From an uncultured Microcaldota archaeon (lineage in GTDB: Archaea > Micrarchaeota > Micrarchaeia > Anstonellales > Bilamarchaeaceae): a stretch of DNA of 64,000 nucleotides. The stretch covers positions 1-64,000 of the forward strand of contig CAIKOA010000030.1 in the NCBI GenBank assembly GCA_903828955.1. The letters run 5' to 3'. The translations under genes were made by a program, and so were the position numbers. The notes below the pieces were generated by a model, which was given only the letters and a program-made list of their open reading frames with translations, made no database searches and was not told the origin of the DNA. Positions 31,201-60,849 of the stretch are shown here, one piece after another; the stretch's first letter is position 1, and each line of letters opens with the position of its first letter.

Positions 31201-34200
31201 GCAATCTTGTTCCTGGATGCAACCTCTGCTTCATATTGGGCAGGGTTGTCCGCCCTTTCGAACTCCGCCCTTGCAAGCGAAATCTGGACCCGCCTGCTCT
31301 TCTCATAGAAATTGGAGAGCGTCCTTGGGTCGTATTCCGCACCTCCGCCCTTCCTTAATGCATCAATAACTTCGGTTGCGCGGACGAACTCCGGCTCAAC
31401 CGAAACCCTCTCCGCCATCCGTATTATTTCCGGAGGCATCTGGACAATTTCCCCGCGCACTATTTTCTCGGCATAATAGATTGCCTGCTCAATTTCGCCA
31501 ACCTGCCTCTCGCTGAAAGTTTTTTGTATCGCCCCGTCCTGAAGCAGATATTTTGATTGGATTTTTCCATCCGCCCCCTTGGACATCTCTATCCCGCTGA
31601 AAGAGTTCTCCACCGCATAATGGAGCGCCTGCGCCTCGGTGGGAACGGGCGAAATCCCCGCCCTTCCCGGGGCTGCTGCAACTGGCTCAGGCCCGGGCGC
31701 ATTCAAATCCACCACCACGCTTGGCGTTTCTGGCCTGGCAAATGCGCCTGCAATCGCTTCCGGAGCAGGGCTCCTCAGGTAATCCAGGCCCCTTCCAAAA
31801 GCCCTTCCAACATCATAACGCAAAAACTCCGCGCCCGGGTGCGCACTTTGCGCAAGGAAAGGAAGCGTTTGGAACATCGTTTGGGCTCCGGCTGCGGCCT
31901 TCGCTATGTCCCCGTTTTCTATTCCATCGTAGAGCATCTTTCCCCCTGCATACGTCCCTTCAGCAGTAAGCACGGTAAACGTAGTATTGTGGAATAGCAT
32001 GAGGCCCCTCTGCACCCCCGAGGCGGCTTCTAGCGCGTTCAATGCGCCCGCAAGCTTCCCCGCCCCAAGCGCCGCGCCCATTGCAATTGTTCCAAGAGGA
32101 ACTTTCCCGGTGCGCAAATATTCGGTTGATGCCCCGTGAATCATGTCCGCGCCGATGAATGCCATTGCAAGCGGGCCGGTAAGCGTTGCGCCCATGAATC
32201 TTGCCAATCCCTCAAGCCCAACCCCCACGCTGTAGTTCATTTGCGCATAGGCAATCTGGCTCTGGGTTTCGGAAATGGAAGCCCTTACGTCCATTGAATT
32301 GCTTCCGGAAGAAATTCTTCTCATGCTTTCAATTGCATTGTGGAAATTGCTGGAAGTTGATTCCCCGGAAACCTGCACTTCCAACGGATGCGAAGAAATC
32401 GTATAGGATGCAAAGAGGAGCGAATCCGCGGCAGATGCCCGCTGGGCCGCGCTTCCGGCATTCTTCTCGCTTTCAATTCCAATGGTTGAGGCAAACTGGT
32501 CCTCTTTATGTTTGGAATACGCCTCGGTTGCGGCAAGCCTCTGCTCTTCCCCGGTTCCATATTGCAATGTGGGGCTCCATTGGACCGCGAGCGCATGCCC
32601 CACCTCCGCCTGCGCGTCCTTGTATTTTGAATATGCCTCTGCGGAATTTCTTTTCCAGTCCCTAGCATCCGCAAGCGCATACGGGCTTTGTGCATACCTG
32701 TCGAATCCGCCAATGCCGTAGGATGCGCTCTCAAGGCTTCCCATCGCCCTGCTAATGTTCATGAAAGACATGTGGCGGACCTGGGCCTGCTCTGCAAACA
32801 GGCTTTCTCCCCCGGTCAGCGTAATCTGCATCAGCGAAAGCGCATCCCGGCTTATCAGGTCCATTCCCCTTCCGACCGCAACCAGGTACTTTCCCTTCTC
32901 AATCCCTTCCAGCTGCGCCTCCAAAATTTTTCTTCCCTCGCGGCCGCTTTCCGGAGTGGATTTTTCAGCCGATTCCCCCAAATGCTTTCCCTTGTATTCC
33001 TCGGTTTTTACTTCGAGCTCCTCGAGTTTCCAGGAGTGGCCGCGCAGCGAATCCGCAACAACCTGCGCGTTGGATGCGATAACCTGCGCCTTCGGCTTCA
33101 TGTCCTCCTCAAGAGTTTGCGCGCCCCGGAGCGCCTTCGCATTCGCCCCCAGGCTGTTTGCGAGGTTCCAGGTTTCCGTATTCATTGAGAGGACTTCCTT
33201 CTGCTTTATCGCAATCTGCTTTGCCAGCTCAGTAGTCCCAAGAGTATCGTATAAGCCGGACCGTTCGTCCGCAATCGCCAAGGAAGTTTTTTCAAGGCCG
33301 TGCTTCCAGACTCCCCACGCATCCCCTTTGAGGGCGAGCTTGCTCATTTCCCCGAGCTCCCTTTCAGCCCTGGAGGAATCCACTTCAACCCCGTTCTTTT
33401 TTGCCTCTGCCAAGACCCCCTCATGGGATTCCCGGGAAGTTTCCATCTGCATTCCGCCCGCCTTCACGGATGCGAGCGCGATTGCCGAGCCGCGAAGGTC
33501 GGCGCGGACATCATATCCCCCTCCCTTCTGGCTCTCCCCGTTCGAAATAATGTAATCGAGCGCCCTCCCAAGCTTAATCCTTCCCTGGAGAAGGTTGTCT
33601 CCCCCCGAATCGATCCCTGCCGCCCTCCTTGCCCCCTCAAGCGTTTCCTCTTCCGAGGCGATTCCCCCATACGAGCTTTTCTCGAAAGTTCCCTTGTATA
33701 TGAGCCCGAGGGATACCGCCTGCCTCGCCTCGTCGAATAGGCCCTCCCTGATTTTTTCCGAAGCAAAATCAACCGTTCCCTGCAGCCTTTTTCCCGCGGT
33801 TCCCTTATATCCCTCAATGGAGCTTTCCAGGCGAAGGAAGTCTGCCTGCGCAGAAGCCATGCTTATTGAATATGAATTTTCCGCAAAAACTTTTTGGATT
33901 GCCCCGGCGCTTTCCGCGTTCAGCCCGGACGCATCCAATTCCCCAGCCTTTTCCAGCCCCGCCCGCAACTCCGCGATGCCTTTATCCGCCTGCCCCATAA
34001 GTGCAGAGTATTCCTCTTTCCCTGCGCGCGCAGGGGGGTGCATCTGCCTTCTTAGTTCAAGGGCGGACACATAGTCTGCAATTCCCCCCATTATTAACTG
34101 GGACTGGGCTAAGGCAATCGCCGCATCGCCAGCCTTCCCTTCCCGCGAAAGCTCAGCCGCTTTCCGGGAAAGCCCCTGGGCAAGTGCCGCCTCATTGAAT

Positions 34201-34826
34201 ATGAATGACGCCTCGCCCTTCCCAAAAACTTTCTGGATTCTTGGACCGGAATCCATGAGCGCAAGCAGGGATTTGTCAATCACCCCGGCCTCCATTTCAA
34301 CATTGTAGGCGGAAATCAGCTGCTCCGCCTTTCCCGAAGAGAAAAGTTCCTCGAGCCCTTTAGCGCCCATTCCCTGCGCATCCGAAGCAGTTTGCCTTAT
34401 TTTTGCGGTTGCAGACTCCTCTTCAAAAGTTCCGGGGGCAAGAAGAAGGGAATTTCCGAACGCAAGGCAGGCATACGCCTTTCCGTATGCGCCCGCTTCC
34501 AGGTATTCGCCTGCCCTCTCCGCAAGCCACGCGGCATCCGCATTTTTCGTGCTTCCCGCCGCATTCTCCAATATGGAGAGCCCCATCTGGAGCTGCTGGA
34601 GCCCGGACTGCGTTTTTGCTTCCTTTACCTTTGCATCCGCTTCGTTTGTTGCGGCCAAAGAAATCGTTGAATAGGAAAGGCGCAGGAGCGCATCTATGTT
34701 CTTGTTTGCATCTTGAATTGAGAGCTGGGGGAGGTTTGTTTTTGAGGGGATTTGCTCAATGGCGTGCAGCGCTTCTTCTCTTGCCCTATTCTGCACCCCT
34801 TCTATTTCAGCCTTAGGCCCGGCCAA
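28239..34826 (-). CDS. Giant protein (2195 aa): helical repeats, hydrophobic segment, C-terminal PPP-type metallophosphatase domain, C-terminal TLxEMAA repeats
   Basis: IGDVHGD, TGDYVDRGA, LRGNHEALFLRAFE metallophosphatase motifs; single uninterrupted frame. Confidence 0.85.
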   Translation of the reverse strand: MAGPKAEIEGVQNRAREEALHAIEQIPSKTNLPQLSIQDANKNIDALLRLSYSTISLAATNEADAKVKEAKTQSGLQQLQMGLSILENAAGSTKNADAAWLAERAGEYLEAGAYGKAYACLAFGNSLLLAPGTFEEESATAKIRQTASDAQGMGAKGLEELFSSGKAEQLISAYNVEMEAGVIDKSLLALMDSGPRIQKVFGKGEASFIFNEAALAQGLSRKAAELSREGKAGDAAIALAQSQLIMGGIADYVSALELRRQMHPPARAGKEEYSALMGQADKGIAELRAGLEKAGELDASGLNAESAGAIQKVFAENSYSISMASAQADFLRLESSIEGYKGTAGKRLQGTVDFASEKIREGLFDEARQAVSLGLIYKGTFEKSSYGGIASEEETLEGARRAAGIDSGGDNLLQGRIKLGRALDYIISNGESQKGGGYDVRADLRGSAIALASVKAGGMQMETSRESHEGVLAEAKKNGVEVDSSRAERELGEMSKLALKGDAWGVWKHGLEKTSLAIADERSGLYDTLGTTELAKQIAIKQKEVLSMNTETWNLANSLGANAKALRGAQTLEEDMKPKAQVIASNAQVVADSLRGHSWKLEELEVKTEEYKGKHLGESAEKSTPESGREGRKILEAQLEGIEKGKYLVAVGRGMDLISRDALSLMQITLTGGESLFAEQAQVRHMSFMNISRAMGSLESASYGIGGFDRYAQSPYALADARDWKRNSAEAYSKYKDAQAEVGHALAVQWSPTLQYGTGEEQRLAATEAYSKHKEDQFASTIGIESEKNAGSAAQRASAADSLLFASYTISSHPLEVQVSGESTSSNFHNAIESMRRISSGSNSMDVRASISETQSQIAYAQMNYSVGVGLEGLARFMGATLTGPLAMAFIGADMIHGASTEYLRTGKVPLGTIAMGAALGAGKLAGALNALEAASGVQRGLMLFHNTTFTVLTAEGTYAGGKMLYDGIENGDIAKAAAGAQTMFQTLPFLAQSAHPGAEFLRYDVGRAFGRGLDYLRSPAPEAIAGAFARPETPSVVVDLNAPGPEPVAAAPGRAGISPVPTEAQALHYAVENSFSGIEMSKGADGKIQSKYLLQDGAIQKTFSERQVGEIEQAIYYAEKIVRGEIVQMPPEIIRMAERVSVEPEFVRATEVIDALRKGGGAEYDPRTLSNFYEKSRRVQISLARAEFERADNPAQYEAEVASRNKIADALGEVQDAVKANKGSKMAIEFSFGEWRELGPGESIRVDIPAEGGGLRSERVRIESIGPAEYGGGQYIITYTVERTGSTGRVALDRNADAMDAHNALAARTLLNIRAFEKAGEEAKLPGGMEAEVPGTIPLAVPARPFNEVWGEVIPKVQAIGDKAGVVRFEPNEKPVFTLDINGEQVRVRLNEVRAIGGKGMYISVTPAAEAEGNIFVPARRGQDVSEILPTLKRKVGEALERERAAKPEGKLLEFEEPFKEKEAMKEAAPKPPETGVPKAVEDTLLSAVQMRTPEGKAAVGEPRLRELARRGWDEVYRGRVDETPLPEQEIKPYEIVKSQLNNRFNEVAEIAFQDAVAERAGAEQKPLRVLEAEGPAYERMRNLMGTILDANSARIEEGAKPGEILRPSQFVSDYRVYLQRGIGLPKGVAEAAERMGVKTEVLYDGKYVTEVKDASQFFAIGDVHGDPVVPISTLKGAGVIIDLRPDLPVTDKSLAFAERYKVNPEVAKGTQIIFTGDYVDRGANSVEAVEFVQWLGKAVEALGNGSQVHTLRGNHEALFLRAFEIVKGKTDAEMAQLVKDMSEYTKLEIFKYNNQEAFENNPEMMARHAELHKIMEREFETHGLGISSIGLASTFESMLNRYGSWSEAVKGVQAEGGMVAFMRGTKAAVILSGDNGRQLFTHGGPVTRTEMLDADGNVAHDANGKVVYGDVRTLGQLEGHYERMLGDVDNWWAYNMPPNDQAQLEKFMLGTYPRMKNGDYSGLYVSSKAKDTIMHNMKWSITNSEALPNIRAFSENMGITSITVGHRAGPNVRHMGDFETAGGGKVEVNCIDGAISDAYMGGYKDWSGGILYKNAWDGNFVVQGRRDAPGNIEQPTRMLPFGSPVKMENGYTDAWKAAGQAEAGRVPERPAPKPLKPQAAPVQEPVEQKPAGVGLTLGEMAARNAPAAEAPKTGMTLGEMAAQKSAPTAEAATGGKTLAEMAAEQAKKRAKER

Positions 34827-41527: not shown

Positions 41528-41925
41528 TATTTCACCCGGAGAATCCCTTTATTCGCGTCCACTTCGACTAAATCTCCATCCTTAAGAATTGAGAAAACAT
41601 CCACATCCAGTTTATCCAGCATGGGAATTTCCGAAATGATTGCGCCCACCGCAATAATTGTTTCCGCTTCCTGATTGATTATCGCAACCGGGGCAACCCC
41701 GTTCTGCTTCATTTCCAGAATTACATAAGAGCCTACGGTGGAGCCCTTTCCGCGGGGAAAAACGAGCACCTTGCCCGCAAGGGATTTCCCTTCCAGAGGG
41801 TGCCCCTTCTCAACAACAATTCCGGTTTTTGGGTTCACATTCCCTAAGAAGGAGAGAGGCTCCCTGCTAAGGAGAACTTCGCCTCTTGCATGGCCCTTGG
41901 AGATTACGCGCCCGATTATTTCCAT
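41527..41925 (-). CDS. AcnX small subunit (DUF126 swivel; phosphomevalonate dehydratase small subunit)
   Basis: GRVISKGHARGEVLLS...PLSFLGNVNPKTGIV...GHPLEGKSLAGKVLVFPRGKGSTVGSYVI. Confidence 0.9.
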   Translation of the reverse strand: MEIIGRVISKGHARGEVLLSREPLSFLGNVNPKTGIVVEKGHPLEGKSLAGKVLVFPRGKGSTVGSYVILEMKQNGVAPVAIINQEAETIIAVGAIISEIPMLDKLDVDVFSILKDGDLVEVDANKGILRVK

Positions 41926-43124
41926 AAAATTTCCTCTATTTTTCCAAACAATAATTTCTGCTGGCACATCGTAGGTAAGTACACAGCCGCCTTCCCGGAA
42001 TCCACCGCGGTCCGCTTATACCCCATCCTTTCCAATGGAGCAACAACCATGCAGGTGTCCGCAACCAGCTTCCCGCCATTTTTCTCAATTTTTTGCGCAA
42101 GCCCCATCTCCTGCGCCTTGATTTTTATTTCGCGCGCAACGCAAATCCAGAGAGTTTTCTTAACCGGTTTCTTCTCCAGAAGCTGCGAAATCTCCACAAG
42201 TTCCGAAATCGATGCGTGCGGGCAGCCCAAAGTAATTATGTCCGCAGTATCCACCTCATTCAAAGCCTTCTTCGCCTTATCCATTTCCTTCTGGGTAATC
42301 GTAATCTGCTCCGCATCCTTAGAGACCCTCCACTCAGGAGTGAACTTTTCCACAAAGTAGAGCGGAACCGAACCCGAAGCCGCCATCGCAGCGCCCAAAT
42401 ATTTCAAATCATTTTCATTCGGGCGGGCTCCGGGGAAAGTTTTGAATGCGGGAATCCCTCCATTTGATTTCTTCCCAACAATCAATCCAAGAAGCCCGAA
42501 ATCCGACCTATTCGTAAGTTTCGCATCCACCTTTACAATCAGGTTTGCAACCCTGTTCTCATCCAAATGTAATCCATAATAGGGAGTAACCCCGCAAATC
42601 GCTGCGCAGAGCGCGGAAGGCCCGCCTTCCCTGTTCGTTTTCGCCCCAAGGACCGAATTCGCAAAAGAGATTGCCGAGCTTTCGCTCCACGCAATGTGCT
42701 CCCCGACTTTCGGCTTAATTCCAATTAAATACGGAGTGCAGGTGCAGCTCATCTTTATTCCCATTGTTGCGTACGCATCCAGGATTTCCATCTGCTTAAT
42801 TGCAAAATCCTGCGGAATTCCCAGGGCTTCCCATTGCTCGATGTCCATTCCCGCAGGATTCAGGAAAGAGGGGATTTCCACCTTCGCCCCGAGTGCGGCC
42901 ATGTGCTTCAGGTAGCCAAGGCCCGCATCCCCGATTGTCTTATAGGAAACTCCCGCAATCTGCGCAGAAGTAACCGGAATCATCTTATTAGCCCCATAGA
43001 TTTTGCCGAGGGCCACAAGGATTTCCATCGCCTTCTGCTTGCCCTGGCCCATCTCTCCATTGAGCATCAGTTGTTCATTAGTAGTGAGTTCCAATCTCTG
43101 CACCTTAAGCCGTATTCTCTGCAC
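41916..43124 (-). CDS. AcnX catalytic subunit (phosphomevalonate dehydratase large subunit)
   Basis: SAQIAGVSYKTIGDAGLGYL, AWSESSAISFANSVLGAKTNREGGPSALCAAI, CPHASISEL. Confidence 0.9.
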   Translation of the reverse strand: MQRIRLKVQRLELTTNEQLMLNGEMGQGKQKAMEILVALGKIYGANKMIPVTSAQIAGVSYKTIGDAGLGYLKHMAALGAKVEIPSFLNPAGMDIEQWEALGIPQDFAIKQMEILDAYATMGIKMSCTCTPYLIGIKPKVGEHIAWSESSAISFANSVLGAKTNREGGPSALCAAICGVTPYYGLHLDENRVANLIVKVDAKLTNRSDFGLLGLIVGKKSNGGIPAFKTFPGARPNENDLKYLGAAMAASGSVPLYFVEKFTPEWRVSKDAEQITITQKEMDKAKKALNEVDTADIITLGCPHASISELVEISQLLEKKPVKKTLWICVAREIKIKAQEMGLAQKIEKNGGKLVADTCMVVAPLERMGYKRTAVDSGKAAVYLPTMCQQKLLFGKIEEILWK

Positions 43125-43276: not shown

Positions 43277-45061
43277 ATGGAAGCCATCAGCAGAGCCTTG
43301 GCTGAGATGCCCGTGCAAAAGGCAAAGCGGCGCATAGGCGCGCTAGCAATGCCGCTGCATGAACCCGCATTTCCATCCATAAACGACATACGGAGGGCGC
43401 AGCTGATCGAGCTTGCAAAAAACCCCCCGAAAAGGATGAAGTGGCTCCAATTAACGAACGAAGAGGCCCTTCTTCTCGCATTCCAGTTCAACAAGGAAAA
43501 CGGAATCTCCGCAAGGTCGCAGCTGGAAAAGAGCTACAACAGCCTCTACGAAACCCTCGCAAAGAGGGGCCTCATGGGCGAGTGCTTTGGAAAGCCCCTT
43601 GGCGAAATGTCCAGGAGGGGGCTGGTCGAGCTCGGAAAGCGGCTCATGGAGGAAAACGGGATAAAAAACAAAACCGAATTCGACAGGAAATTCGACCACC
43701 TCTCCCGCGTTCTCAAGGAGAAGGGCGCATTCAAGGAGCTCGGCTTCGAAGAGTTAAGGCGGAACTTCCACTCTATGGATGACTCCTCCCTGCTTGCGTA
43801 TGCAAGGAAAAGAATATGGGAAATCGGAGCCAAAAGCAGGGCAAGCCTCTCCGAAAAAGACCCCAAGCTCTACGAGGTGCTCCATTCCCGCAAGCTGATG
43901 GATTCGATTCATTTCAGCAAAGAACTCACCAGATGGGGAACGCTGGACGACGACCATTTTGCCGCGGAGATAAACAAGGCTGCGGAGCGCAAGCAGATTT
44001 TCACTTTTCGCGAACTCGAATTGCGCTCAAGGAAGGAATACAGTGCGGTTTTCAAGAGGATAGGGACATCCCCCGGGATAACGCAAAAGCTAAACCTCCT
44101 CTACAAAAGGACCATTCCCTCAATTTCCGATTCACAACTCAGGGAATGGATAGGAAAATTCGTAAGGAGGGACAGGGTGGAAACCCTGGAGGGCCTCCGC
44201 GCCTCCGCCCCGCTGGTTTTGAGTGAGATAAGGAGAAGGGGCTGGGAACCCATGGAGGAAATCTTCAATCACGCCCACTACCCTGTAAAGGAGACGAAGA
44301 GAACCAGCAGGGAAGCGGAAGCGATGCTGATGAGGAACCAGGACCTTGTCCGGCACATAATATTCAAAAGAAGCCTCCTCAAGCTTTGCGACTACGACAC
44401 CTCCGCGCAGATTGCGAGGTTTTCCATTTTCAAGAGCGCATTGCGCTGGGACGGGGATAACCTGGACCCGAATTTCAGGCCGTTTGCAATCATGAACAGC
44501 AAGGACACCTGGCGCGAAATCATCTTTGAGCTGGAAAACGTCCACATTCCCGTGCACATCCGTAGCCACGTCGCCAGGTTCCATCGCCTCAGTTCCGGTA
44601 AGCCGGACTTTTCTTTTGATGAATATGCAAAAAGGGAGGGGCTGCAGGGGGAAGCTGCGGAAAACATCAGGCATGCCATTCCTATGCACACTGGTTCCCT
44701 CAGAAACGCGCTTCCGCAGAAGAAAGGGGGCGAGGAGGCGACTCCGGAATACCAGGATGCTTTCTTCACCAGGCATGGCAGGCCTGCAGGCGCGCCCTTT
44801 GAGGCCGAAGAGCGCATATTCGGGGCAGAGCTTAAGCAGAAAGTCGGCAAGGCACTTGGCCGCCTTTCGGAGAGGCACAAGAGAATAATCACGATGCAAT
44901 TCGGGCTGGGCAGGTACAGGCGGCCGCATACCCTTGACGAAATCGGAAGCCAGATCGGGGTCAGCCGGGAAAGGGTAAGGCAGATTTCCGATAAAGTGTT
45001 GGGAAGGCTGAAGAGGGACCCCCTCGTTTCAACGCTTTTCAGGGAGATGGTGATAGAATGA
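43277..45061 (+). CDS. Sigma-70 family-like protein A: N-terminal ~50-aa repeats plus sigma regions 2-3-4
   Basis: Region 4: LSERHKRIITMQFGLGRYRRPHTLDEIGSQIGVSRERVRQISDKVLGRLKRDP; region 2/3: NQDLVRHII...FKSALRWD...FRPFAIMNSKDTWREIIFELENVHIPVHIRSHVARFHRL. Confidence 0.88.
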   Translation: MEAISRALAEMPVQKAKRRIGALAMPLHEPAFPSINDIRRAQLIELAKNPPKRMKWLQLTNEEALLLAFQFNKENGISARSQLEKSYNSLYETLAKRGLMGECFGKPLGEMSRRGLVELGKRLMEENGIKNKTEFDRKFDHLSRVLKEKGAFKELGFEELRRNFHSMDDSSLLAYARKRIWEIGAKSRASLSEKDPKLYEVLHSRKLMDSIHFSKELTRWGTLDDDHFAAEINKAAERKQIFTFRELELRSRKEYSAVFKRIGTSPGITQKLNLLYKRTIPSISDSQLREWIGKFVRRDRVETLEGLRASAPLVLSEIRRRGWEPMEEIFNHAHYPVKETKRTSREAEAMLMRNQDLVRHIIFKRSLLKLCDYDTSAQIARFSIFKSALRWDGDNLDPNFRPFAIMNSKDTWREIIFELENVHIPVHIRSHVARFHRLSSGKPDFSFDEYAKREGLQGEAAENIRHAIPMHTGSLRNALPQKKGGEEATPEYQDAFFTRHGRPAGAPFEAEERIFGAELKQKVGKALGRLSERHKRIITMQFGLGRYRRPHTLDEIGSQIGVSRERVRQISDKVLGRLKRDPLVSTLFREMVIE

Positions 45062-48000
45062 ATCCGGCGCAGGGTTCCGCATGCAGGAAGGAGGAAATTT
45101 CCAGAGCCCCGCGCAAAATTTCCGAGCTCCCGAAAAAAAGCAGGCGGGAGGTCTGGGCCCTTGCCCTTGCAAATGAGGAAATAATAAAAAAGGCATTCCA
45201 TTGCTACGGCTTCACACTTCTTCCCGGGGTTTTGGAGCACGGCAGGCTCTCCGATGATGCAAGGCAGATAGGGATGCTGAGGCTCATGGCCGCGGCCGAG
45301 CACTGGGACCCGGATGCGGGAATCCCCTTCAAATCCTACGCATACACATACCTTCAATCCGCAGGGAGCGACCTCTCAAGCGCATTTCCCCTCACCGGAT
45401 TCAGGGTTCCTCCAAAGGAAAGGGAGGCCGCGATGGGCCTTCAGAAATGGATGCGGGAAAACCCCGGAAAGGAACTTTCGGATTTCGCATTAGAAAAAGG
45501 GATTGCGCCCGCGGAGGCGCTTAAGATCGAAGGCTGGCTGGAGAGCTACCGCGCATCAATGCGCGCAATAAGCGGCGACCAGCTGTTTTTCGGAGGGAAA
45601 GCGGAAGCCCCGGAGAACTCCGGCTTCATTCGGAAATGGGCGGAATTTTCCATGCTTCCCCCGGATGCGGAATTCCAAAAATGCTCGGAGGCGGGCGCAA
45701 TAGATTCGGATTCCGCATCCAAGCTCCGTTCCGCAATTTCATCCCTTTCAAAAACACAGAGAAAAGTGGTCTCGCTCCTTTACGGGCTGGATGGAAACCC
45801 TGAGCACACCCCGCTTGAGGTTTCAAGGATTGCGGGAATAGGGCCGCACCTTGTAGGAAAAATGGAAAAGGAAGCAATCGTAACTTTGAGAACGCTGCTT
45901 GATGCTCCTGTGCAGGAACGCGAAGAAAACAGCGAGGGCTATGTTTTCAGGAAGCAGGATCTCCTTTGCCTCCTTCCGGTTGAAAACGAAATCGCATTGA
46001 GGCTAAAATTCGGAATCGGCTTCGAAGGGAAGTGGAGCGCAGAAGAAATCTCAATATTGCTCGGCACAAATGCCGCTTCCGCAAGGTGGACTGCGGATTC
46101 GGCGTTGAAGAAGGCGCAGAGCCTCCCGCCCACAGGTGCCTGGGGTGCGCGCCTCCTCGGGATGCGCGAATTCCTGATAACCAACCACGACCTCCTGGAC
46201 TCGCTTGAACCTAGAAGAAGCGCAATATTGAAGGCGCGCTTCGGGCTGGAAAACGGGAACCCGAAAACCCTGGAGGAATGCAGGAATCTCCCGGAGTTCG
46301 GAGGGAAGGCGATCACAAGGCAGAGGGTGAACCAGCTCCACTACTCCGCAATCGGGCAGATAATATTGCTCTCTTTCCGCAGGGAAGGCCCTTCCGCATT
46401 CCATGAATTCCTTTCCAGGAACTACTCACTTGCGCAGGAGAGAATTTTTCCGCAGGATTTGAAAAGGATTCTTGAAGTTGCGGATTGCGAGAGGCCGGGA
46501 AAAACCCGGAAATCCATTGGAAAAAACAAAAGCGCCGCCCTTCCTCCGCTGGATGTGCTCAGGCTCATAGGGAAGGAGGTCGCGCCGCTGATAGATTCCG
46601 AATATTTCCTTCCATATGCAGGGAGAAGCGCGAATGATGCGCCCCTCTTCAAATTCGTTTCTGAAAATTTCCACCTTCTTGGCTCGATTGATGAAAAGGA
46701 GCGGAAGGCGATTTCCCTTCGTTTCGGCCTTTATGGAATGGGGAGGCACTCATTTGATGAATTGGGCTCTGCGATGGGCGTATCCAGGGGCTACGACCTT
46801 CCCAGGAGAATTTTCTCCGCGGGAATACGCTCGCTCCTTGAGAAATCCCTTGAGCGGAAATACGGGAAGGGCTTTGATGCGGATTCGGCCATGAAGGAAT
46901 TCATATCCTCGCATGGCAGGGAGTTTTCGCTTCTTAGCCCCAAACAGAAGGAAGCGCTCAACGCAAAATTCGGGAAGGAGGGGGAAGCCCCGCGCTCTTA
47001 CTCAGAAGCCGGCAAGCTTCTCGGAATCCCGAACCAGATGGTAAAGGAGCACGAGCTGGAGGCGGTTTTCAAGCTCCTTAAAAAAAGCCCCGGAGGGGTA
47101 AAGGCCTTCCTTCTTTCAAATCCGAAAATCCTCTCCGGCCTCGATAAGGAAAAACAGGATATTCTCTCGATGCATTTTGGCCTCTCGGGTAAGCCGCCAG
47201 TTCCCATAAACGAAATCCTCAACTCCACAAAAGAGCCCAGCATGAGGAGCCTGAGGAGAAAGATGCTCAGGTGGATTCATGGCATTCTGCTTGATTCCCT
47301 TCGTGTGCAGGCAGGTTCGGGAGGAAAGGGCACTTCCCCGGTCTCGCGCTTCCTTGCCGAAAACCCGAACCTTCTCCAGGGCCTCCCTGAGAAAGAGATG
47401 AGTGCGCTCCTGTTCCGGAATTTCAGGCAGGGCGAAGCCGGCGCCAAAGGCGGCAAGATAAGTTACGGCCTGATTAATGCGAGAGAATCCGCGGCGATTG
47501 CAAAAATAGTTTCGGCCTGGCAGCTTTCCGGCCCGGCGCAGGCCCATGCAGAAAGCAACGAGAAATTCCTTTCCGCGCACGTTTCTGCGCTTGCTGCCCT
47601 TTCCCCAAGGGAAGAGATTGCAGCGCTTCTTTACTTCGGAGTTGAAAAATGGAGGCGGCACGCAGAATCTGAAATTGCGGATGCGCTCGGTTTGCGCAGT
47701 TCTGCCGAAGCAGGCAACCTCGTAGAAGAAGGAATAGCCCTCCTTAGGCGCGCAGGCTGGAACAGGGCAAAGGGGATTTACCCGGAGCCGAAAATGAAGA
47801 GCTTCTTCCTGAAGAATCCGGAAATCTCCAAAATCCTCTCCCCGAAAACCGAAGCCTGCGCAAGGTTGTTCAGCGGGTCGGGGGGCGGAAAGGAATGCAC
47901 AGTGCGGGAAATTTCAGAAGCGCTCGGGATGCCTGAGAAAAGCGTCCGGAATGCAATTTTCCGCGCATATTCCCTTGCAATCCTTTACTCCAAAAAAGCC

Positions 48001-48090
48001 GAATCCGCAGGCAACGTATACGTCCTGAATGTGGGAAAAGGCAGAAAGGGCTCCAAGGAGCCGCTTTGCGAAGGGATAATTCACTCGTAA
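45058..48090 (+). CDS. Sigma-70 family-like protein B: sigma regions 2-3-4 plus a tandem array of region-4-like units
   Basis: Region 2: QIGMLRLMAAAEHWDPDAGIPFKSYAYTYLQS; region 4: LSKTQRKVVSLLYGLDGNPEHTPLEVSRIAGI...; further FLxxNxxLLxxLxxxExxALxxxFG units. Confidence 0.85.
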   Translation: MNPAQGSACRKEEISRAPRKISELPKKSRREVWALALANEEIIKKAFHCYGFTLLPGVLEHGRLSDDARQIGMLRLMAAAEHWDPDAGIPFKSYAYTYLQSAGSDLSSAFPLTGFRVPPKEREAAMGLQKWMRENPGKELSDFALEKGIAPAEALKIEGWLESYRASMRAISGDQLFFGGKAEAPENSGFIRKWAEFSMLPPDAEFQKCSEAGAIDSDSASKLRSAISSLSKTQRKVVSLLYGLDGNPEHTPLEVSRIAGIGPHLVGKMEKEAIVTLRTLLDAPVQEREENSEGYVFRKQDLLCLLPVENEIALRLKFGIGFEGKWSAEEISILLGTNAASARWTADSALKKAQSLPPTGAWGARLLGMREFLITNHDLLDSLEPRRSAILKARFGLENGNPKTLEECRNLPEFGGKAITRQRVNQLHYSAIGQIILLSFRREGPSAFHEFLSRNYSLAQERIFPQDLKRILEVADCERPGKTRKSIGKNKSAALPPLDVLRLIGKEVAPLIDSEYFLPYAGRSANDAPLFKFVSENFHLLGSIDEKERKAISLRFGLYGMGRHSFDELGSAMGVSRGYDLPRRIFSAGIRSLLEKSLERKYGKGFDADSAMKEFISSHGREFSLLSPKQKEALNAKFGKEGEAPRSYSEAGKLLGIPNQMVKEHELEAVFKLLKKSPGGVKAFLLSNPKILSGLDKEKQDILSMHFGLSGKPPVPINEILNSTKEPSMRSLRRKMLRWIHGILLDSLRVQAGSGGKGTSPVSRFLAENPNLLQGLPEKEMSALLFRNFRQGEAGAKGGKISYGLINARESAAIAKIVSAWQLSGPAQAHAESNEKFLSAHVSALAALSPREEIAALLYFGVEKWRRHAESEIADALGLRSSAEAGNLVEEGIALLRRAGWNRAKGIYPEPKMKSFFLKNPEISKILSPKTEACARLFSGSGGGKECTVREISEALGMPEKSVRNAIFRAYSLAILYSKKAESAGNVYVLNVGKGRKGSKEPLCEGIIHS

Positions 48091-48151: not shown

Positions 48152-49504
48152 ATGCTGGGATTGGGAAATATGGGAAAAGCAATGCGATACCTGGCAGGGG
48201 GCGCAATCGTGGCCACTTTGGCTACCGCGAGCCTCCGCTGCAATAACGAGGATCAGGCTTCCCGGGGCTTCGGAGCGCAATGGATGCCCATGATTGGTGC
48301 GCAATGCTCTGCCTCTTTGGAAACCAGGGCCAAGGAAATCCCGAAATCCGAATTAGGGCAAATCGAGACGACCGCGCGCTCCTTCCTGGAAGAACTCAGA
48401 ACAAACCGCTCAAAATATCCGGACGATTGGTTTGCAGACCAGCTAAAAATCTGTGTCCTAAATGATAGCTGCTCCATCACCCGTTATCTGTATGCAGCCG
48501 CACTCTACACCCACGACACAGGCCTCGGAATCAAGTCAGTGGCGGCATTGGCGCGTTATCCGACAGAAAGCATGAGCGTTGGGGAACATTTTAAAGAGAT
48601 CATATTGAGGACCGTTTCGCTGGAAGCCAGGGACCCGAAGGTTGCAGCGGCCGCCAAGGAAGCCTCGCTGAAGCTCTCCAGATTCATCCTGAAAAAATGC
48701 ATATCCGGAGAAGACTGGCCGCGCGTTTATGACATGGCCGAGCATTCTGTGCACCCTGAGATAAAGAATAAGGCAATCAATTTGACGCTCAACCACGGCG
48801 GGCTTTATGCCTTGAAATATGTCGCCATCCATTCGTCAGATGCATCCAAAGCAGAAGGCGCATTGGACAAGATAGCAAGCAAAACACTGTGGGGCGAGGT
48901 GCGCGATGTCGCAGAAAACGCCCAGAACCAGCCAATACGCGCCAAGGCGCTTAAGGCGCTTGAAAATTCCGGAAGCTATTCCGAAATTGCGGGCGTTGCA
49001 GAAGATTCTAACGATGAAGAACTAGTCAACTCTGCAATAGCAGTACTAATCGATAAAGGCCAGGATGAAAGCATTCTGGAGGTTCTCAGAGATGCCGCTT
49101 GGTCTGGCCGCTTGATGGCCGGGAAAAATGCGATAACTGCCCTTGTGGCCAACAAAAAATGGGAAGTTATCGCAGGCATCCTGGAGGAACGTTTTTGCAT
49201 ATCATACGATCAATATAGCCCCTCCCACATTGCTTATGCCTATGAAATGATAGGAAAGCAAATACCGGATTTAGCTTTGGCAGGAGAATACAGCATTCTG
49301 AAAACAATTGCCTTGGGAGCAAATGATTACGAAACTAGGCAAGCTGCTTTGGATTCTTTAATTAAAGCGGGCAGGTGGCAGGAGGTTAGGTCTGTCGCAG
49401 AGTATCTGGAGTATGGGGAAAATTCCCAGAGCAGTGAATTAAGGGACCGCGCCCTGGGGTCCCTTCCATTGTATGAAAGGATATGCACCCATCTGGATTT
49501 GTAG
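48152..49504 (+). CDS. Predicted membrane-anchored/lipoprotein-like HEAT-repeat protein
   Basis: N-terminal hydrophobic segment ending in Cys (GGAIVATLATASLRC); repeated helical pairs (VAENAQNQPIRAKALKALENSG...). Confidence 0.65.
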   Translation: MLGLGNMGKAMRYLAGGAIVATLATASLRCNNEDQASRGFGAQWMPMIGAQCSASLETRAKEIPKSELGQIETTARSFLEELRTNRSKYPDDWFADQLKICVLNDSCSITRYLYAAALYTHDTGLGIKSVAALARYPTESMSVGEHFKEIILRTVSLEARDPKVAAAAKEASLKLSRFILKKCISGEDWPRVYDMAEHSVHPEIKNKAINLTLNHGGLYALKYVAIHSSDASKAEGALDKIASKTLWGEVRDVAENAQNQPIRAKALKALENSGSYSEIAGVAEDSNDEELVNSAIAVLIDKGQDESILEVLRDAAWSGRLMAGKNAITALVANKKWEVIAGILEERFCISYDQYSPSHIAYAYEMIGKQIPDLALAGEYSILKTIALGANDYETRQAALDSLIKAGRWQEVRSVAEYLEYGENSQSSELRDRALGSLPLYERICTHLDL

Positions 49505-49541: not shown

Positions 49542-50840
49542 CTATTCATAATCCTGCAAATTAACCTCCAAATACCTTGCTTTCTCGAATTCCTTTCCTA
49601 ATTTTCCAATCGGTTTTGTCGCATCAATCCCTACTTTGGTAGTTTCGCGCGTAAATGGATTCGCAGAAGGGTCCAAAGAGGAGCCTTTCTCGCCCTTTTT
49701 AACAACCAGCCCCTTGTCCCCCTGGAAGCGGGTCGCAATCGCCCATTCCACTTCCTGCATATTATGGATATCTACATCCTCATCCACAATCACTACGTGC
49801 TTGAGCGACTTATGCCCGATAAATGCGGCCTCTATTGCCTTCTTCCCATCATCCGCATTCTTCTTCTTTATTCCAACCACCGCGTGAAGCCAGGAGCACC
49901 CTCCCGGAGTAATGTTCACTCCAGTGCAGGGAACAACCTTATCCACTTCATCAAAAATCGTGGGCTCGCGGGGCATTCCCATCAAAACCTTGTGCTCCAA
50001 TCCACCTGGAAGGAGTGCGTGGAAAATCGGATTCTTCCTGTGATAGATTTTCTTGACCGTAAGCGTGGGCTGCTTCCGCACAACATCATATGTTTCCGTT
50101 AAATCCAGGAATGGCCCTTCCTTTTCCAGCTTATTCGAGCTCAAATGCCCAACGAATGCAAACTCCACTTCAGACGGAATCTCAATCCCATTCATGAGTT
50201 CCACGGTTTCAAAGGGCATGAGCGTATTCGCAATCTCCAGTTCGCTCTGGCCTATTTTTGTTGAAATTGCGGATGCGAGCAGCACATTTATCGGCGCTCC
50301 AATTATTACCGCAACTTCCAATTCTCCCCCGGCCCTTTTCAGAAACTCGTCCAGGTGCCGCGGAAGAATCCTCAAAACCAGCTTATTGTCCCCGGCCACC
50401 ATCATCCTGTGGAATGAGCAGTTCTGCCCAAGCTCCGGGTCCTTTGCAATCACTATTCCAGAACAAATGTACGGCCCTCCATCCTTCTTTGTATGTATTG
50501 GAATTGGAATTTCCTTTAAGGAAGAAGAAGTCTCCTCTAAAACCGGAGCAGTATTCGTTTTCCTGGGTTTGGATGGATTGTTTATTGCATGCACCATTTT
50601 CTCCTGGATTTCGGATGCCTCGCAGCCCAAATACTCCGCCACCTGCTCCCTCGTTGCAAAAATGTTTGATGCGCACCTCATCGGGGAGTCCGTCACATAT
50701 CCGATGCAGGGAGTCGGCTCCAGCGCATGGAAAACCCCTGCAATTTCCAATTTCCTTTTCAAAGGTTTTTCAATTACGCGCAGTTTCCCATCCGCTTTCA
50801 GCTGCTCAACAAAATCACGGAAAGATTTCATAATATTCAC
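49542..50840 (-). CDS. ubiD: UbiD-family decarboxylase (candidate anhydromevalonate phosphate decarboxylase)
   Basis: FRDFVEQLKADGKLRVI, HRMMVAGDNKLVLRILPRHL, GGLEHKVLMGMPREPTIFDEV, DEDVDIHNMQEVEWAIATRFQGDK. Confidence 0.92.
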   Translation of the reverse strand: MNIMKSFRDFVEQLKADGKLRVIEKPLKRKLEIAGVFHALEPTPCIGYVTDSPMRCASNIFATREQVAEYLGCEASEIQEKMVHAINNPSKPRKTNTAPVLEETSSSLKEIPIPIHTKKDGGPYICSGIVIAKDPELGQNCSFHRMMVAGDNKLVLRILPRHLDEFLKRAGGELEVAVIIGAPINVLLASAISTKIGQSELEIANTLMPFETVELMNGIEIPSEVEFAFVGHLSSNKLEKEGPFLDLTETYDVVRKQPTLTVKKIYHRKNPIFHALLPGGLEHKVLMGMPREPTIFDEVDKVVPCTGVNITPGGCSWLHAVVGIKKKNADDGKKAIEAAFIGHKSLKHVVIVDEDVDIHNMQEVEWAIATRFQGDKGLVVKKGEKGSSLDPSANPFTRETTKVGIDATKPIGKLGKEFEKARYLEVNLQDYE

Positions 50841-50870: not shown

Positions 50871-51386
50871 TCATGGGTATAGCTTGCTTACTTCCCTCAA
50901 TAGGCCCAATACGCTCACAAAAAACATCCTCTTCTCAATGCTGCGCGCATGGAGGCTCTCATAATACGCTTCCAGCAGCTCAATCGCTTTCTTGGAGTCG
51001 AGTGTAAAGCACTTGTAGAAGACCCTCCTCCCCACTTCTATCTCCCCGTTGCCCACCGCTACCTTGAATGCAAAAAAGAGCTTGTTTACGTCCTTTTCTT
51101 CCCTTTCAACCTCCGCAAGCTCCTTTTCCGCATCCTCGCGAAGCCCTTCCCTGAAATCAGGGATTGATTCGCATATGAGGAAAAGCCGGTCTTTGGTAAG
51201 CCGGAAAAGCTTCTCAAATGCGTTCTTGGCAGCCTTGTTTTCGCCAAGCGCCTCGAGCGCGCTCGCATAAAAGAAAAGCAGGTCTACGTCCTCCGGCCTG
51301 AGGTCGAGCTCCGCTTTGCAGAACTCCTTGAGCTCTCTGCATTTGTTTTCTGAAAGCATCTGCTGCATCTTTTGCAGGAAGGCCAT
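50871..51386 (-). CDS. TPR-like helical protein
   Basis: CKAELDLRPEDVDLLFFYASALEALGENKAAKNAFEKLFRL. Confidence 0.65.
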   Translation of the reverse strand: MAFLQKMQQMLSENKCRELKEFCKAELDLRPEDVDLLFFYASALEALGENKAAKNAFEKLFRLTKDRLFLICESIPDFREGLREDAEKELAEVEREEKDVNKLFFAFKVAVGNGEIEVGRRVFYKCFTLDSKKAIELLEAYYESLHARSIEKRMFFVSVLGLLREVSKLYP

Positions 51387-51437
51387 TTCCCCATTTTCAC
51401 AACCAGGTTTTTAATAAGTAGCGGACCCAATACAGGC

Positions 51438-52211
51438 ATGAAGCAGTTTTCGGCACGGGCCAAGGGTGCTGCGGCGCTGGTTGCGATCGGCGCTTTCACC
51501 ACAACCCTCCTGGTTGAACCGATAAGCTGCTCAAGAAGGGATGATATGCAGTCTTTCGGAAGCGTTGCTGTTAAGGAAAAGGCACCCACACAGAAGGAAG
51601 TTCTCGACAAAATCCAGAACGCAAGGAATATTGCGCAGGTTTCTTCAGTGGTTTTTGGATTTTTGAAGGAGGATGCCCCAAAGGAGCAGAAGTATTCGGT
51701 TGTGGATTCTTTCTCTGCAAAATTCAAGGAGGACGCGCTGAGGGAATTCTTCCGCAACGCCCATGTCGATTTCGGTTTTGAGTTCAATGGCGGCATAGAG
51801 AAATTCAAGGTTGAGGAGCCCGGCAAGATTTCGTATATGCAGGCGCTCACGCACGGTTTCTTCGACTTCGGCGATGCCGGCCTCAGGTATGTGGTTACTC
51901 TAATTTCAGTTCAGCCGGACCCCTCTCCGTTTGCGATATTCAAGGACAGGGATTCCCCACTTACCGCCCAGATCGGATTGATGGTATGCGCGAAACTCAA
52001 AAAATATGAAAAAATGGACGCGAAGGCCGCGGTGGAATACATAACGCCCTACCTTTCAAAAAAAGACATCACGGATACGGCCAAGAAAAGCCTCCTCGGG
52101 CTGCTGGGCATGATTGACCCTGCCTCGCTTGATGCAATCGCCAAGAACCCCTCCATAGACCCCTACCTGAAGGAAATCGCTGCTGAATTAAGAAACAAGA
52201 CGGGCAGGTGA
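51438..52211 (+). CDS. Predicted secreted/lipoprotein-like helical-repeat protein
   Basis: MKQFSARAKGAAALVAIGAFTTTLLVEPISC leader; ATG at 51438. Confidence 0.6.
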   Translation: MKQFSARAKGAAALVAIGAFTTTLLVEPISCSRRDDMQSFGSVAVKEKAPTQKEVLDKIQNARNIAQVSSVVFGFLKEDAPKEQKYSVVDSFSAKFKEDALREFFRNAHVDFGFEFNGGIEKFKVEEPGKISYMQALTHGFFDFGDAGLRYVVTLISVQPDPSPFAIFKDRDSPLTAQIGLMVCAKLKKYEKMDAKAAVEYITPYLSKKDITDTAKKSLLGLLGMIDPASLDAIAKNPSIDPYLKEIAAELRNKTGR

Positions 52212-57732: not shown

Positions 57733-60700
57733 ATGATTTCCAAAGTACGGAAGAGGGATGGAACTTTAGCTGATTTTAATCCGGAAAAAATAGCGAACGC
57801 AATCTGGAAGGCCGCGGAATATGTTGGCGGCCACGACAAGAAGCGCGCAGAGGAGCTTGCGCAGAAAGTCGTGAAATTGCTCGAAGAAAAATACGATGGG
57901 GCCACCCCCAGTGTTGAAGATGTGCAGGATGCGGTTGAAAAAACATTAATTGAGGAGGGCCACGCCACCACCGCCAAGGCTTATATTCTCTACCGCCACC
58001 GCAAAAGCGTCGAGCGCGAAATGAAAAGGGTGCTTGGAGTTGAAGACGACCTCAAGCTCTCCGTAAACTCGGTGCAGGTCCTCCAACGCAGATATCTTCT
58101 GCGCAATGAGTTGGGCGAAATAGTTGAAACTCCGAGCGGCCTTCTCCAGAGGGTTGCGCATGCGATCGCTTCCGCGGAAAAATCCTATGAAGGCACCGAT
58201 GAAGACGTGAAGCATTATGAGAGCGCATTTTACGAAATAATGAGCTCTTTTGAATTCATTCCCAATTCCCCCACCCTTATGAATGCGGGAACGGACATAG
58301 GGCAGCTTTCCGCCTGTTTTGTTCTTGGGATTCCGGATTCGCTTTCCGGTATTTTTGATGGGGTAAAAAATGCTGCAATGATCCACAAAAGCGGAGGGGG
58401 AACCGGATTTTCATTTTCCCGCCTCCGCCCAAAAGGGGATTTGGTTTCGAGCACCGCAGGAGTCGCTTCCGGCCCGGTTTCCTTCATGACTGTTTTCGAC
58501 CACGCAACCCACGTAATCAAGCAGGGGGGGAAAAGGCGCGGCGCAAACATGGGCGTTCTCGCGGTTTCACACCCTGACATAGAGGACTTCATTACCGCAA
58601 AACAAACCAAGGGAATTCTTGAAAATTTCAACATAAGCGTAAGCGTCGACGATAAGTTCATGAAGGCGGTTGAAAAGGACGGGGAATTTGAGCTCCTGAA
58701 CCCCCGCGGAGGGGAAGTTGTGCGCAAAGTGAGGGCGCGCAGCATCTTCAACCTGATCGCATATTCAGCGTGGAAATCCGGAGAGCCCGGAGTTCTCTTT
58801 ATGGATACGATAAACAAAACAAATACCACTCCGGATTATCCGATTGAGGCGACCAATCCTTGCGTTTCAGGCAATACGCTCGTTTCAACCGATAATGGAT
58901 TAGTCCCAATTCGAGACGTCCACAACCCCTACTGGGTTCTTGGAGGCGAGGGGACGTATAACCCGGTGACCTGGGCAGGGGAGACCGGAGAAAAGGAACT
59001 ATTTCTGGTCAAAACCAGGGCAGGTTATGAAGTTGAAGCAACCGCAGACCACAGGCTGCTCACGAAGAGAGGATGGAAACGCGTAAGCGAGCTTTCCGGA
59101 GAAGACGAGCTTGTTCTCCAGAAAGAAGCAAACTTCGGGAAGAAGCACGTTGACCGCGAGATTGCCCTCATGCTTGGCTGGATAACCGGGGATGGCCTAA
59201 TCACAAAAAATATGCAGGACGTGATTTTCTATTTTGGCGGAAATGAAAAGAAGGAATTGCTTCCAATATTCAAAACCTACCTGGACCGCATTAACGGGGT
59301 TTCCGTAAAGCCAATTGAAGACAAGACCGAAACACGCCTTAAGTATTCATCAAAAATAGCAAAGATGTTTTGCGGTTTTGGCACGATGCCTGCCCCAGCC
59401 CACGAAAAGGAAGTTCCTGCCGCGGTATTCCAAATGGACCGGGATTCCGTCAAGCACTTCCTTTCGTCCCTTTTTGCCGCGGACGGCTCGGTCCAGGGAA
59501 ACAGGGTTAAAGGCGTTAGCATCAGGCTTTCCTCAAACTCTGCAAAATTGCTTAAGCAGGTGCAAGTGCTCCTCCTTCAATTTGGGATTCTCTCAAACCT
59601 GCATCTGGAAAGGAGGAAGGCCCATTCCAAGATGATGCCTGATTCGAAGAGGAATCCAAAACTCTACCAATGTCGCGCCCAGCACGAACTTATCATCAGC
59701 AGGAGGAGCATGTTTAGGTTTATGGATGAGATCGGTTTTGCGGTTTCAGGCAAAAATGAAAAATTTGCCAGGCTCAAGCCGGAAAAAGCATATTCCGATA
59801 ACATAAACGCCTCCATAGGTTCTGTCGCACCAATCGGAACTGCGAGAGTCTACGACCTTACTGAACCGGCAACTCATTCTTTTTCCGCAAACGGGATAAT
59901 TGTGCATAATTGCGGCGAGGTCCCTATGCCTAATTTCGAATCCTGCAACCTCGGCAGCATCGACCTTGCGCGCTTTGTGGAGTTGGACTGGAGCAATAAG
60001 CCCTGGAAGAAAAAGGTGAATTGGGATAGGCTCCGCTTCGTAACCCGCCTCGCTGTCCAATTCCTGGACAATGTAATCGAATTGAACAAATACCCTCTTC
60101 CGGAGATTAAGGAAGCAACGCTGCGGCACAGAAGGATTGGGCTCGGAGTGATGGGCTTTGCAAAAATGCTCTACAAAACAGGCGTCCGTTATGACAGCAA
60201 GGAGGGCCTGGAAGCAGGAGAAGAAATAATGAAATTCATCACCAGTGAAGCGCGCAAAATGAGCCATGAACTCGGGCGCGCCCGCGGCTCCTTCCCGGAA
60301 TTCAAGAAGAGCACCTGGGCGAAAAAATACGATGCAATGAGGAATGCGACAGTGACTTCCATTGCGCCCACCGGCACCCTCTCCATGATTGCGGAAACCT
60401 CTTCAGGAATAGAGCCCCAGTTCGCGCTCGCTTACATAAAGAATGTGATGGATGGCACAAAGCTCTACTATTCCGAGCCGGTTTTCGAGCAGGTTCTCCA
60501 GCAGAAAGGATTGGATACTCCGGAACTCATGAAGAAAATAATCGAGAGGGGAAGCATAAAAGAAATGGAGGAAATTCCAAAAGACGTTCGCAACGTATTC
60601 GTAGTCTCCTACGACATTCCTGTGGAATTCCACATAAAAATGCAGGCGGATTTCCAGAAGAATACCGACCTTGCGGTGAGCAAAACGGTAAATATGCCTT

Positions 60701-60849
60701 CCACCGCAACCGTGGATGATGTGGAAAAGGCCTACATGCTCGCTTGGAAGAGCGGATGCAAGGGAATTACCGTTTACCGGGATAAATCCCGCGAAGAGCA
60801 GGTGCTCAGCGCAGGGGGCGAGGAAAAGCTAAATAAAGAGGCAGGATGA
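57733..60849 (+). CDS. Ribonucleoside-diphosphate reductase (class II-like) with embedded intein
   Basis: ATP-cone IVKVRKRDGTLADFNPEKI-like start, NSPTLMNAG, GGGTGFSFSRLRP, NP/CGEVPM..ESCNLGS, SIAPTGTLSMIAETSSGIEP. Confidence 0.93.
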   Translation: MISKVRKRDGTLADFNPEKIANAIWKAAEYVGGHDKKRAEELAQKVVKLLEEKYDGATPSVEDVQDAVEKTLIEEGHATTAKAYILYRHRKSVEREMKRVLGVEDDLKLSVNSVQVLQRRYLLRNELGEIVETPSGLLQRVAHAIASAEKSYEGTDEDVKHYESAFYEIMSSFEFIPNSPTLMNAGTDIGQLSACFVLGIPDSLSGIFDGVKNAAMIHKSGGGTGFSFSRLRPKGDLVSSTAGVASGPVSFMTVFDHATHVIKQGGKRRGANMGVLAVSHPDIEDFITAKQTKGILENFNISVSVDDKFMKAVEKDGEFELLNPRGGEVVRKVRARSIFNLIAYSAWKSGEPGVLFMDTINKTNTTPDYPIEATNPCVSGNTLVSTDNGLVPIRDVHNPYWVLGGEGTYNPVTWAGETGEKELFLVKTRAGYEVEATADHRLLTKRGWKRVSELSGEDELVLQKEANFGKKHVDREIALMLGWITGDGLITKNMQDVIFYFGGNEKKELLPIFKTYLDRINGVSVKPIEDKTETRLKYSSKIAKMFCGFGTMPAPAHEKEVPAAVFQMDRDSVKHFLSSLFAADGSVQGNRVKGVSIRLSSNSAKLLKQVQVLLLQFGILSNLHLERRKAHSKMMPDSKRNPKLYQCRAQHELIISRRSMFRFMDEIGFAVSGKNEKFARLKPEKAYSDNINASIGSVAPIGTARVYDLTEPATHSFSANGIIVHNCGEVPMPNFESCNLGSIDLARFVELDWSNKPWKKKVNWDRLRFVTRLAVQFLDNVIELNKYPLPEIKEATLRHRRIGLGVMGFAKMLYKTGVRYDSKEGLEAGEEIMKFITSEARKMSHELGRARGSFPEFKKSTWAKKYDAMRNATVTSIAPTGTLSMIAETSSGIEPQFALAYIKNVMDGTKLYYSEPVFEQVLQQKGLDTPELMKKIIERGSIKEMEEIPKDVRNVFVVSYDIPVEFHIKMQADFQKNTDLAVSKTVNMPSTATVDDVEKAYMLAWKSGCKGITVYRDKSREEQVLSAGGEEKLNKEAG
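58861..59910 (+). mobile_element. Intein with LAGLIDADG homing endonuclease (350 aa) inserted at NP/CGE of the RNR
   Basis: Starts C-VSGNTLVST, block-B-like TADHRLLTKRGW, LMLGWITGDGLI and FLSSLFAADGSV DOD motifs, ends FSANGIIVHN|C. Confidence 0.94.

Follow-up and report, generated by a model that had tools for sequence, protein, structure and literature searches.

Sigma factors are the hallmark of transcription initiation in bacteria, whereas archaea use TBP and TFB. What part a sigma protein plays in a cell without the bacterial polymerase is the question raised by the sigma-like genes of DPANN archaea, and the locus analyzed here makes this question concrete. It lies in a 64,000-nucleotide stretch (the window; positions 1 to 64,000 of contig CAIKOA010000030.1) from an uncultured Microcaldota archaeon, and encodes two adjacent sigma-like proteins, here called A and B. 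Sigma-70 homologs have been reported in DPANN archaea, where their role is unclear (PMC8204110), and a review gives Rinke and colleagues the credit for the first sigma factors of archaea (PMC6126073). In these two sources we found neither a tandem array of sigma region 4 (r4) nor a hypervariable sigma cluster described. The present case resembles these homologs in that sigma-70-like genes occur beside archaeal transcription factors in a small genome.

The host is archaeal: the window carries ribosomal protein S3Ae, AcnX, a UbiD-family decarboxylase and a GHMP kinase, and the 1.22 Mb genome (Micrarchaeota) holds TBP, TFB and one match to the RNA polymerase (RNAP) beta-type subunit model. Contamination or mis-binning was rejected, as the contig is 76 kb long, archaeal mevalonate-pathway genes flank the locus, and sister genomes share this arrangement. 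A weak Sigma70_r4 match on contig C12 proved to be archaeal TFB rather than sigma, so low-scoring archaeal r4 matches were excluded from the sigma counts. Elsewhere in the window, a ribonucleotide reductase large subunit (57733-60849) contains an intein with a LAGLIDADG domain, and a 2195-aa protein on the minus strand (28239-34826) has a calcineurin-like phosphoesterase near residues 1659-1777 as its sole Pfam match.

The reading frame of protein B starts with ATG, and the 1010-aa ORF given by the initial annotation was exact. Pfam detected Sigma70_r4 in four stretches of the protein (E 5.3e-23), and Sigma70_r4_2 also matched. The sigma region 2 that had been proposed from the letters alone was confirmed by Sigma70_r2 (PF04542) at 25.6 bits, above the cut-off of 24 (E 1e-5), and reached 28.8 bits in the genome-wide search. 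The RpoD/SigA-type model TIGR02997 (NCBIfam) spans residues 70-278, under its own strict cut-off. A region 3 and a region 4 had also been placed after region 2; the latter holds as r4 unit 1, whereas the region-3-like segment, through which a phmmer alignment runs, has no Pfam region-3 match of its own. The N-terminal third of protein B resembles the sigma-70 family (PF04542, PF04545; group 1-3 sigma factors such as SigA, RpoS and FliA) in its succession of region 2, region-3-like part and region 4. Unlike a sigma-70 factor, for which a single region 4 is expected, protein B has nine.

Table 1. Coordinates of the sigma-like locus and of the parts of protein B in the window.
Feature	Position	Strand	Evidence
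acnX (archaeal mevalonate pathway), cluster border	41916..43124	-	Pfam AcnX 517.8 bits
Protein A, sigma-like partner, 594 aa	43277..45061	+	Pfam Sigma70_r4 48.9 bits; relatives in G004, G002
Protein B, sigma-like, 1010 aa, region 2 and nine r4-like units	45058..48090	+	ORF, Pfam, ortholog
Region-2-like domain, residues 62-99	45241..45354	+	Pfam; alignment to cyanobacterial SigB, PDB 7pp4
r4 unit 1, residues 216-285, usual sigma position, non-canonical recognition helix	45703..45912	+	Unit HMM, Pfam, helix score
r4 unit 2, residues 291-360	45928..46137	+	Cross-species unit HMM; no Pfam match alone
r4 unit 3, residues 369-438, sole unit with sigma-type -35 recognition helix	46162..46371	+	PDB matches, helix score
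Unit 3 recognition helix TRQRVNQLHYSAI, residues 420-432; ortholog SVERIRQLEGTAL	46315..46353	+	Helix-pattern score
Spacer between units 3 and 4, double length, starts near FHEFLSRN	46372..46644	+	Spacing; no r4 match
r4 unit 4, residues 530-599	46645..46854	+	Pfam 24.5 bits (cut-off 24.1); AF2, Foldseek
r4 unit 5, residues 612-681	46891..47100	+	Pfam 24.5 bits; unit HMM
r4 unit 6, residues 681-750	47098..47307	+	Unit HMM; no Pfam match alone
r4 unit 7, residues 762-831, degenerate	47341..47550	+	Unit HMM
r4 unit 8, residues 834-903	47557..47766	+	Unit HMM; no Pfam match alone
r4 unit 9, residues 913-982	47794..48003	+	Pfam Sigma70_r4_2 27.9 bits (cut-off 25.7)
ubiD-family decarboxylase, other cluster border	49542..50840	-	Pfam UbiD 169 bits

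An ortholog of protein B (992 aa, 25% identity) lies in the same neighborhood in the sister species G004 (L047, JAUWMC010000002.1). We cut nine units from each of the two proteins at the conserved helix-1 motif and built a unit HMM per species. The HMM from the ortholog's units found nine domains in protein B (full E 5.8e-56, domains 3.8-30 bits), and the reverse search found nine in the ortholog (E 4.7e-60). Across 200 shuffles the best domain reached 0.8 bits for protein B and 1.8 bits for the ortholog, and unit 9 of the ortholog (-0.2 bits) was the sole unit not exceeding the shuffles in the reverse test. All of the one plus eight r4-like starts noticed in the initial annotation are therefore real. 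Run against Pfam one at a time, units 4, 5 and 9 passed a family cut-off and units 1 and 3 fell under it; units 2, 6, 7 and 8 gave no match, so their support comes from the array profile. The unit is periodic, with starts 69-82 aa apart except for one double gap between units 3 and 4 (161 aa; 152 aa in the ortholog). No r4 match to Pfam was found in this spacer, which is possibly a worn-out tenth slot. Unit 7, already suspected of degeneracy at ~47344, is the weakest of protein B at 3.8 bits; in the ortholog it scores 14.4 bits and its helix-1 motif is intact.

The fold of the unit was examined with an AlphaFold (AF2) model of unit 4, for which the nine units of each species, 18 in all, were aligned as a guide. 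The model has five helices and a pLDDT of 94. Each of the best 50 PDB matches listed by Foldseek was a sigma chain containing r4 or a sigma complex; the probability was 1.00, query TM-scores were 0.57-0.76, and no E-value fell below 0.001. The modeled unit therefore has the r4 fold, in line with the HTH first supposed. The FLxxNxxLL motif ahead of most units does recur, but it is not the separate linker for which it had been taken: in the AF2 model it forms the first helices of each unit. The full-length model of protein B, built on a two-sequence alignment, was poor (pLDDT 49, pTM 0.27) and serves for the repeated helix pattern only, so the overall shape of the array is not readable from it. 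A Foldseek search with this model returned mostly sigma chains with meaningless TM-scores and was set aside.

We then scored the recognition helix of each unit against the pattern [ST]R[EQ]R[VIL]RQ[ILM][EQ]xxA[LIV] at 11 positions. Unit 3 scored 9/11 in the window (TRQRVNQLHYSAI) and 10/11 in the ortholog (SVERIRQLEGTAL). The remaining eight units of both species scored 3-6, which is background, as shuffled segments gave at most 7 in 5000 trials. Unit 3 is also the unit closest to region 4 of SigA/RpoD in the PDB (E 4.4e-6 alone, 7e-13 in profile). Unit 1, the r4 at the ordinary distance from region 2, has lost the -35 signature. These results indicate that eight units retain the r4 fold but not the -35 signature, which unit 3 alone keeps. 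Compared with the sigma-70 family, the -35 helix is still present in protein B but has moved to the third of nine units.

This distribution bears directly on the function first put forward for the array, namely that multiple r4 units grip multiple -35-like sites or flap tips simultaneously, and bridge DNA. The r4 profile signal common to all nine units, the r4 fold of the modeled unit and the basic character of protein B (pI 9.4, net charge +27) agree with such a role. However, eight of the nine recognition helices are without the -35 signature in both species, so the data do not support a reading of several -35 sites at the same time, and we consider this model as a whole very unlikely. The helix test sees the sigma -35 signature only; the remaining units might contact DNA through a different set of residues. 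The charge of units 2 and 8, close to neutral or acidic, argues against DNA being bound uniformly along the array.

Might protein B be an alternative initiation factor, with region 2 docked on the clamp of the archaeal RNAP, unit 3 reading an upstream element, and a second promoter class served beside TBP/TFB? Its region 2 above the Pfam cut-off and the canonical recognition helix of unit 3 fit this proposal, as do near-canonical sigma relatives of the same family in other genomes (for example 466 aa in G063 and 498 aa in G011), whose helices score 8-10; several paralogs within the cluster itself reach just 4-7. Against it, the Trp-Trp melting dyad of region 2.3 is replaced by Thr-Tyr in protein B (FKSYAYTYLQ, compared with FSTYATWWIR in SigB) and by Leu-Asn at the same site of the ortholog (FEAYAMLNLR). 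The Trp dyad is also absent from some alternative sigma factors, so its loss weakens but does not exclude the claim of an initiation factor. Together with the lost signature of unit 1, whose spacing from region 2 is the normal one, it argues against ordinary promoter melting, less strongly than the helix scores argue against several -35 contacts. The divergence of protein B is moreover extreme for a core factor. Taken together, we regard an initiation factor as unlikely.

The array has been kept intact between the two sister species: the ortholog has nine units in the order of protein B. Unit i is on the whole closest to unit i of the other species (diagonal sum, 20,000 permutations, p about 1e-4), single units being too diverged for one-by-one pairing. 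This conserved order implies that the array was complete before the two species split, and thus that region 4 was tandem-duplicated to nine units before that time. Identity between orthologous units was 37% in hydrophobic columns (24-35% in the register-shifted control) and 21% in the other columns (13-17% in the control); as both classes exceed the control, the unit surfaces appear to be under some constraint. A paralog under relaxed constraint that survived by chance, with no specific role, would suit the very low identity of the ortholog and the degenerate unit 7. It is hard to reconcile with a 3-kb ORF intact in two species with its nine units in the same order, with coding-like codon-position GC throughout, and with the specific retention of unit 3, and we hold it to be extremely improbable.

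Beyond these two species the array is rare. The unit profile had r4 matches in 32 of 295 genomes of the phylum, and nine-unit arrays in two of them, the window's genome and G004; no description of a tandem r4 array was found in the literature searched, largely outside subscription papers. This bears out the rarity suspected at the outset. A pattern scan of genome contigs returned just the known G004 ortholog, with degenerate patterns that reach close relatives only, so that arrays may exist in bacteria or other archaeal phyla. Viral contigs and plasmids gave zero matches to an r4 array, and the phage collection held no array and one r4 match, a Microcystis phage sigma factor. A two-unit form occurs in G064, of another genus, where a canonical-looking r2-r3-r4 protein (C41, L067:1862-3259) carries a second r4/GerE-like HTH at its C-terminal end. 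A 1074-aa ORF with r4 in another Micrarchaeota genome (G180, C100, L060:187-3408) was rejected as an array, having one unit only; the protein is helicase-like, with a sigma r4-like domain near residues 784-836.

Protein B does not stand alone. The stop codon of A overlaps the start of B (ATGA), and the order and strand of the pair are kept in G004. Protein A is composed of N-terminal repeats, a region-2/3-like part and a C-terminal r4. The repeats (window 43277-44350) have the form LTNEEALLLAFQFNKENGISARSQLEKSYNSLYETLAKRGL and no Pfam match; the G004 relative of A has them without r4, and the G002 relative has both. Sigma-like genes sit beside acnX in the genomes of the genus with a readable site, and between ubiD and acnX wherever one contig holds both borders. 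In G011, of another genus, two sigma genes adjoin ubiX-ubiD-acnX.

The content of this site differs from species to species. G004 has a 368-aa relative of A (repeats, no r4) and the 992-aa B; G002 has proteins of 698 and 327 aa; and G001 has proteins of 288, 316 and 579 aa, both halves of the last looking sigma-like. The 579-aa protein (C22, L025:36-1772) looks like a head-to-tail fusion of two sigma-like parts, with region 4 above and region 2 just below the Pfam cut-off in its first half. Between ubiD and acnX, G005 has seven tandem genes of 304-361 aa (C13, L048:1856-9137), five of them with r4 above the Pfam cut-off and mostly one another's best matches; this row is a lineage-specific expansion at the A/B site. 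The cluster is incomplete at contig ends in G001 and G002 and at the contig start in G003. The ubiD-acnX site is therefore a hypervariable sigma-like gene cluster, holding an array pair, a sigma-sigma fusion or seven tandem genes. In the window's own genome (G000), a third sigma-like gene is apparently split over two contig ends (C7 and C31; L014, L065), its pieces sharing the stretch SGIRKWKLNSIPGVSKEDAAQECLISLIQSAETW.

Sequence divergence is similarly concentrated here. Between the window and G004, housekeeping neighbors (AcnX, UbiD, helicase, GluRS and others) share 58-83% identity, whereas A and B share 24-25%; a TPR-like neighbor shares 45% and a lipoprotein-like neighbor 33%. Divergence is slower (42-62%) for a sigma-like gene located at another place in these genomes. 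Two lipoprotein-like proteins lie beside the cluster: one of 450 aa (48152-49504) lacks a Pfam match and by eye resembles a HEAT-repeat protein, and one of 279 aa (51372-52211) is the neighbor with 33% identity to its G004 counterpart.

Rapid divergence and changes in copy number, with two to seven genes at one site depending on species, favor a family driven by conflict with viruses, plasmids or host/symbiont factors, whose members might, for example, intercept foreign proteins that are sigma-like or bind RNAP, or act as decoys for them. A and B also weakly resemble MzaA (NF041931), a large protein of the anti-phage system MZA that carries a sigma r4 close to its C-terminus. However, the match is confined to this generic sigma end and reaches 39.4 bits for B and 60.8 bits for A against a cut-off of 800 (18.1 and 36.3 bits by PADLOC). 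No MZA partner gene was recognized at the cluster and no other defense gene beside it, and viruses, phages and plasmids offered no relative except the phage r4 match above. We consider a conflict-driven family rather improbable as it stands.

The kept unit order and the kept unit 3 favor a defined function. Our tentative preference, held at a little under even confidence, is that protein B is a sigma-70-derived regulator or scaffold, anchored by unit 3, that acts on the TBP/TFB/RNAP system and is no longer a promoter-melting initiation factor. This reading draws on the nine units, their kept order, the r4 fold, the unit 3 helix, the missing WW dyad and the TBP/TFB host, as well as on the basic protein, its constrained surfaces and the A-B order kept in G004. 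In such a scheme, the promoter-melting role would have been lost, and unit 3 would anchor protein B to DNA at a -35-like motif. The other units may form a long, basic, repeat-built surface for weak DNA contacts or for protein partners such as RNAP or protein A. Protein B would then work on the archaeal machinery as a regulator or scaffold and not as its replacement. The present data separate a regulator or scaffold from a conflict-driven family poorly.

Sigma-70 genes in DPANN archaea were already known; for the r4 array, a case of tandem domain duplication in the sigma family, we found no precedent in the literature searched. It is conceivable, if doubtful, that an archaeal lineage took over a sigma factor from bacteria, which then became a family diversifying rapidly at a single chromosomal site and including a nine-unit r4 repeat protein. 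If true, this would be a new sigma-derived modular scaffold class working on or against the archaeal transcription machine. The locus displays a sigma scaffold that has retained a single DNA-reading unit, with eight HTH units seemingly diverted to other use. Its close relatives form a natural series, with single r4, two r4, sigma-sigma fusion, nine-unit array and seven tandem genes, that is open to expression and comparison. The fast-changing cluster shows ways in which an initiation factor of bacterial type can be remodeled in an archaeal host.
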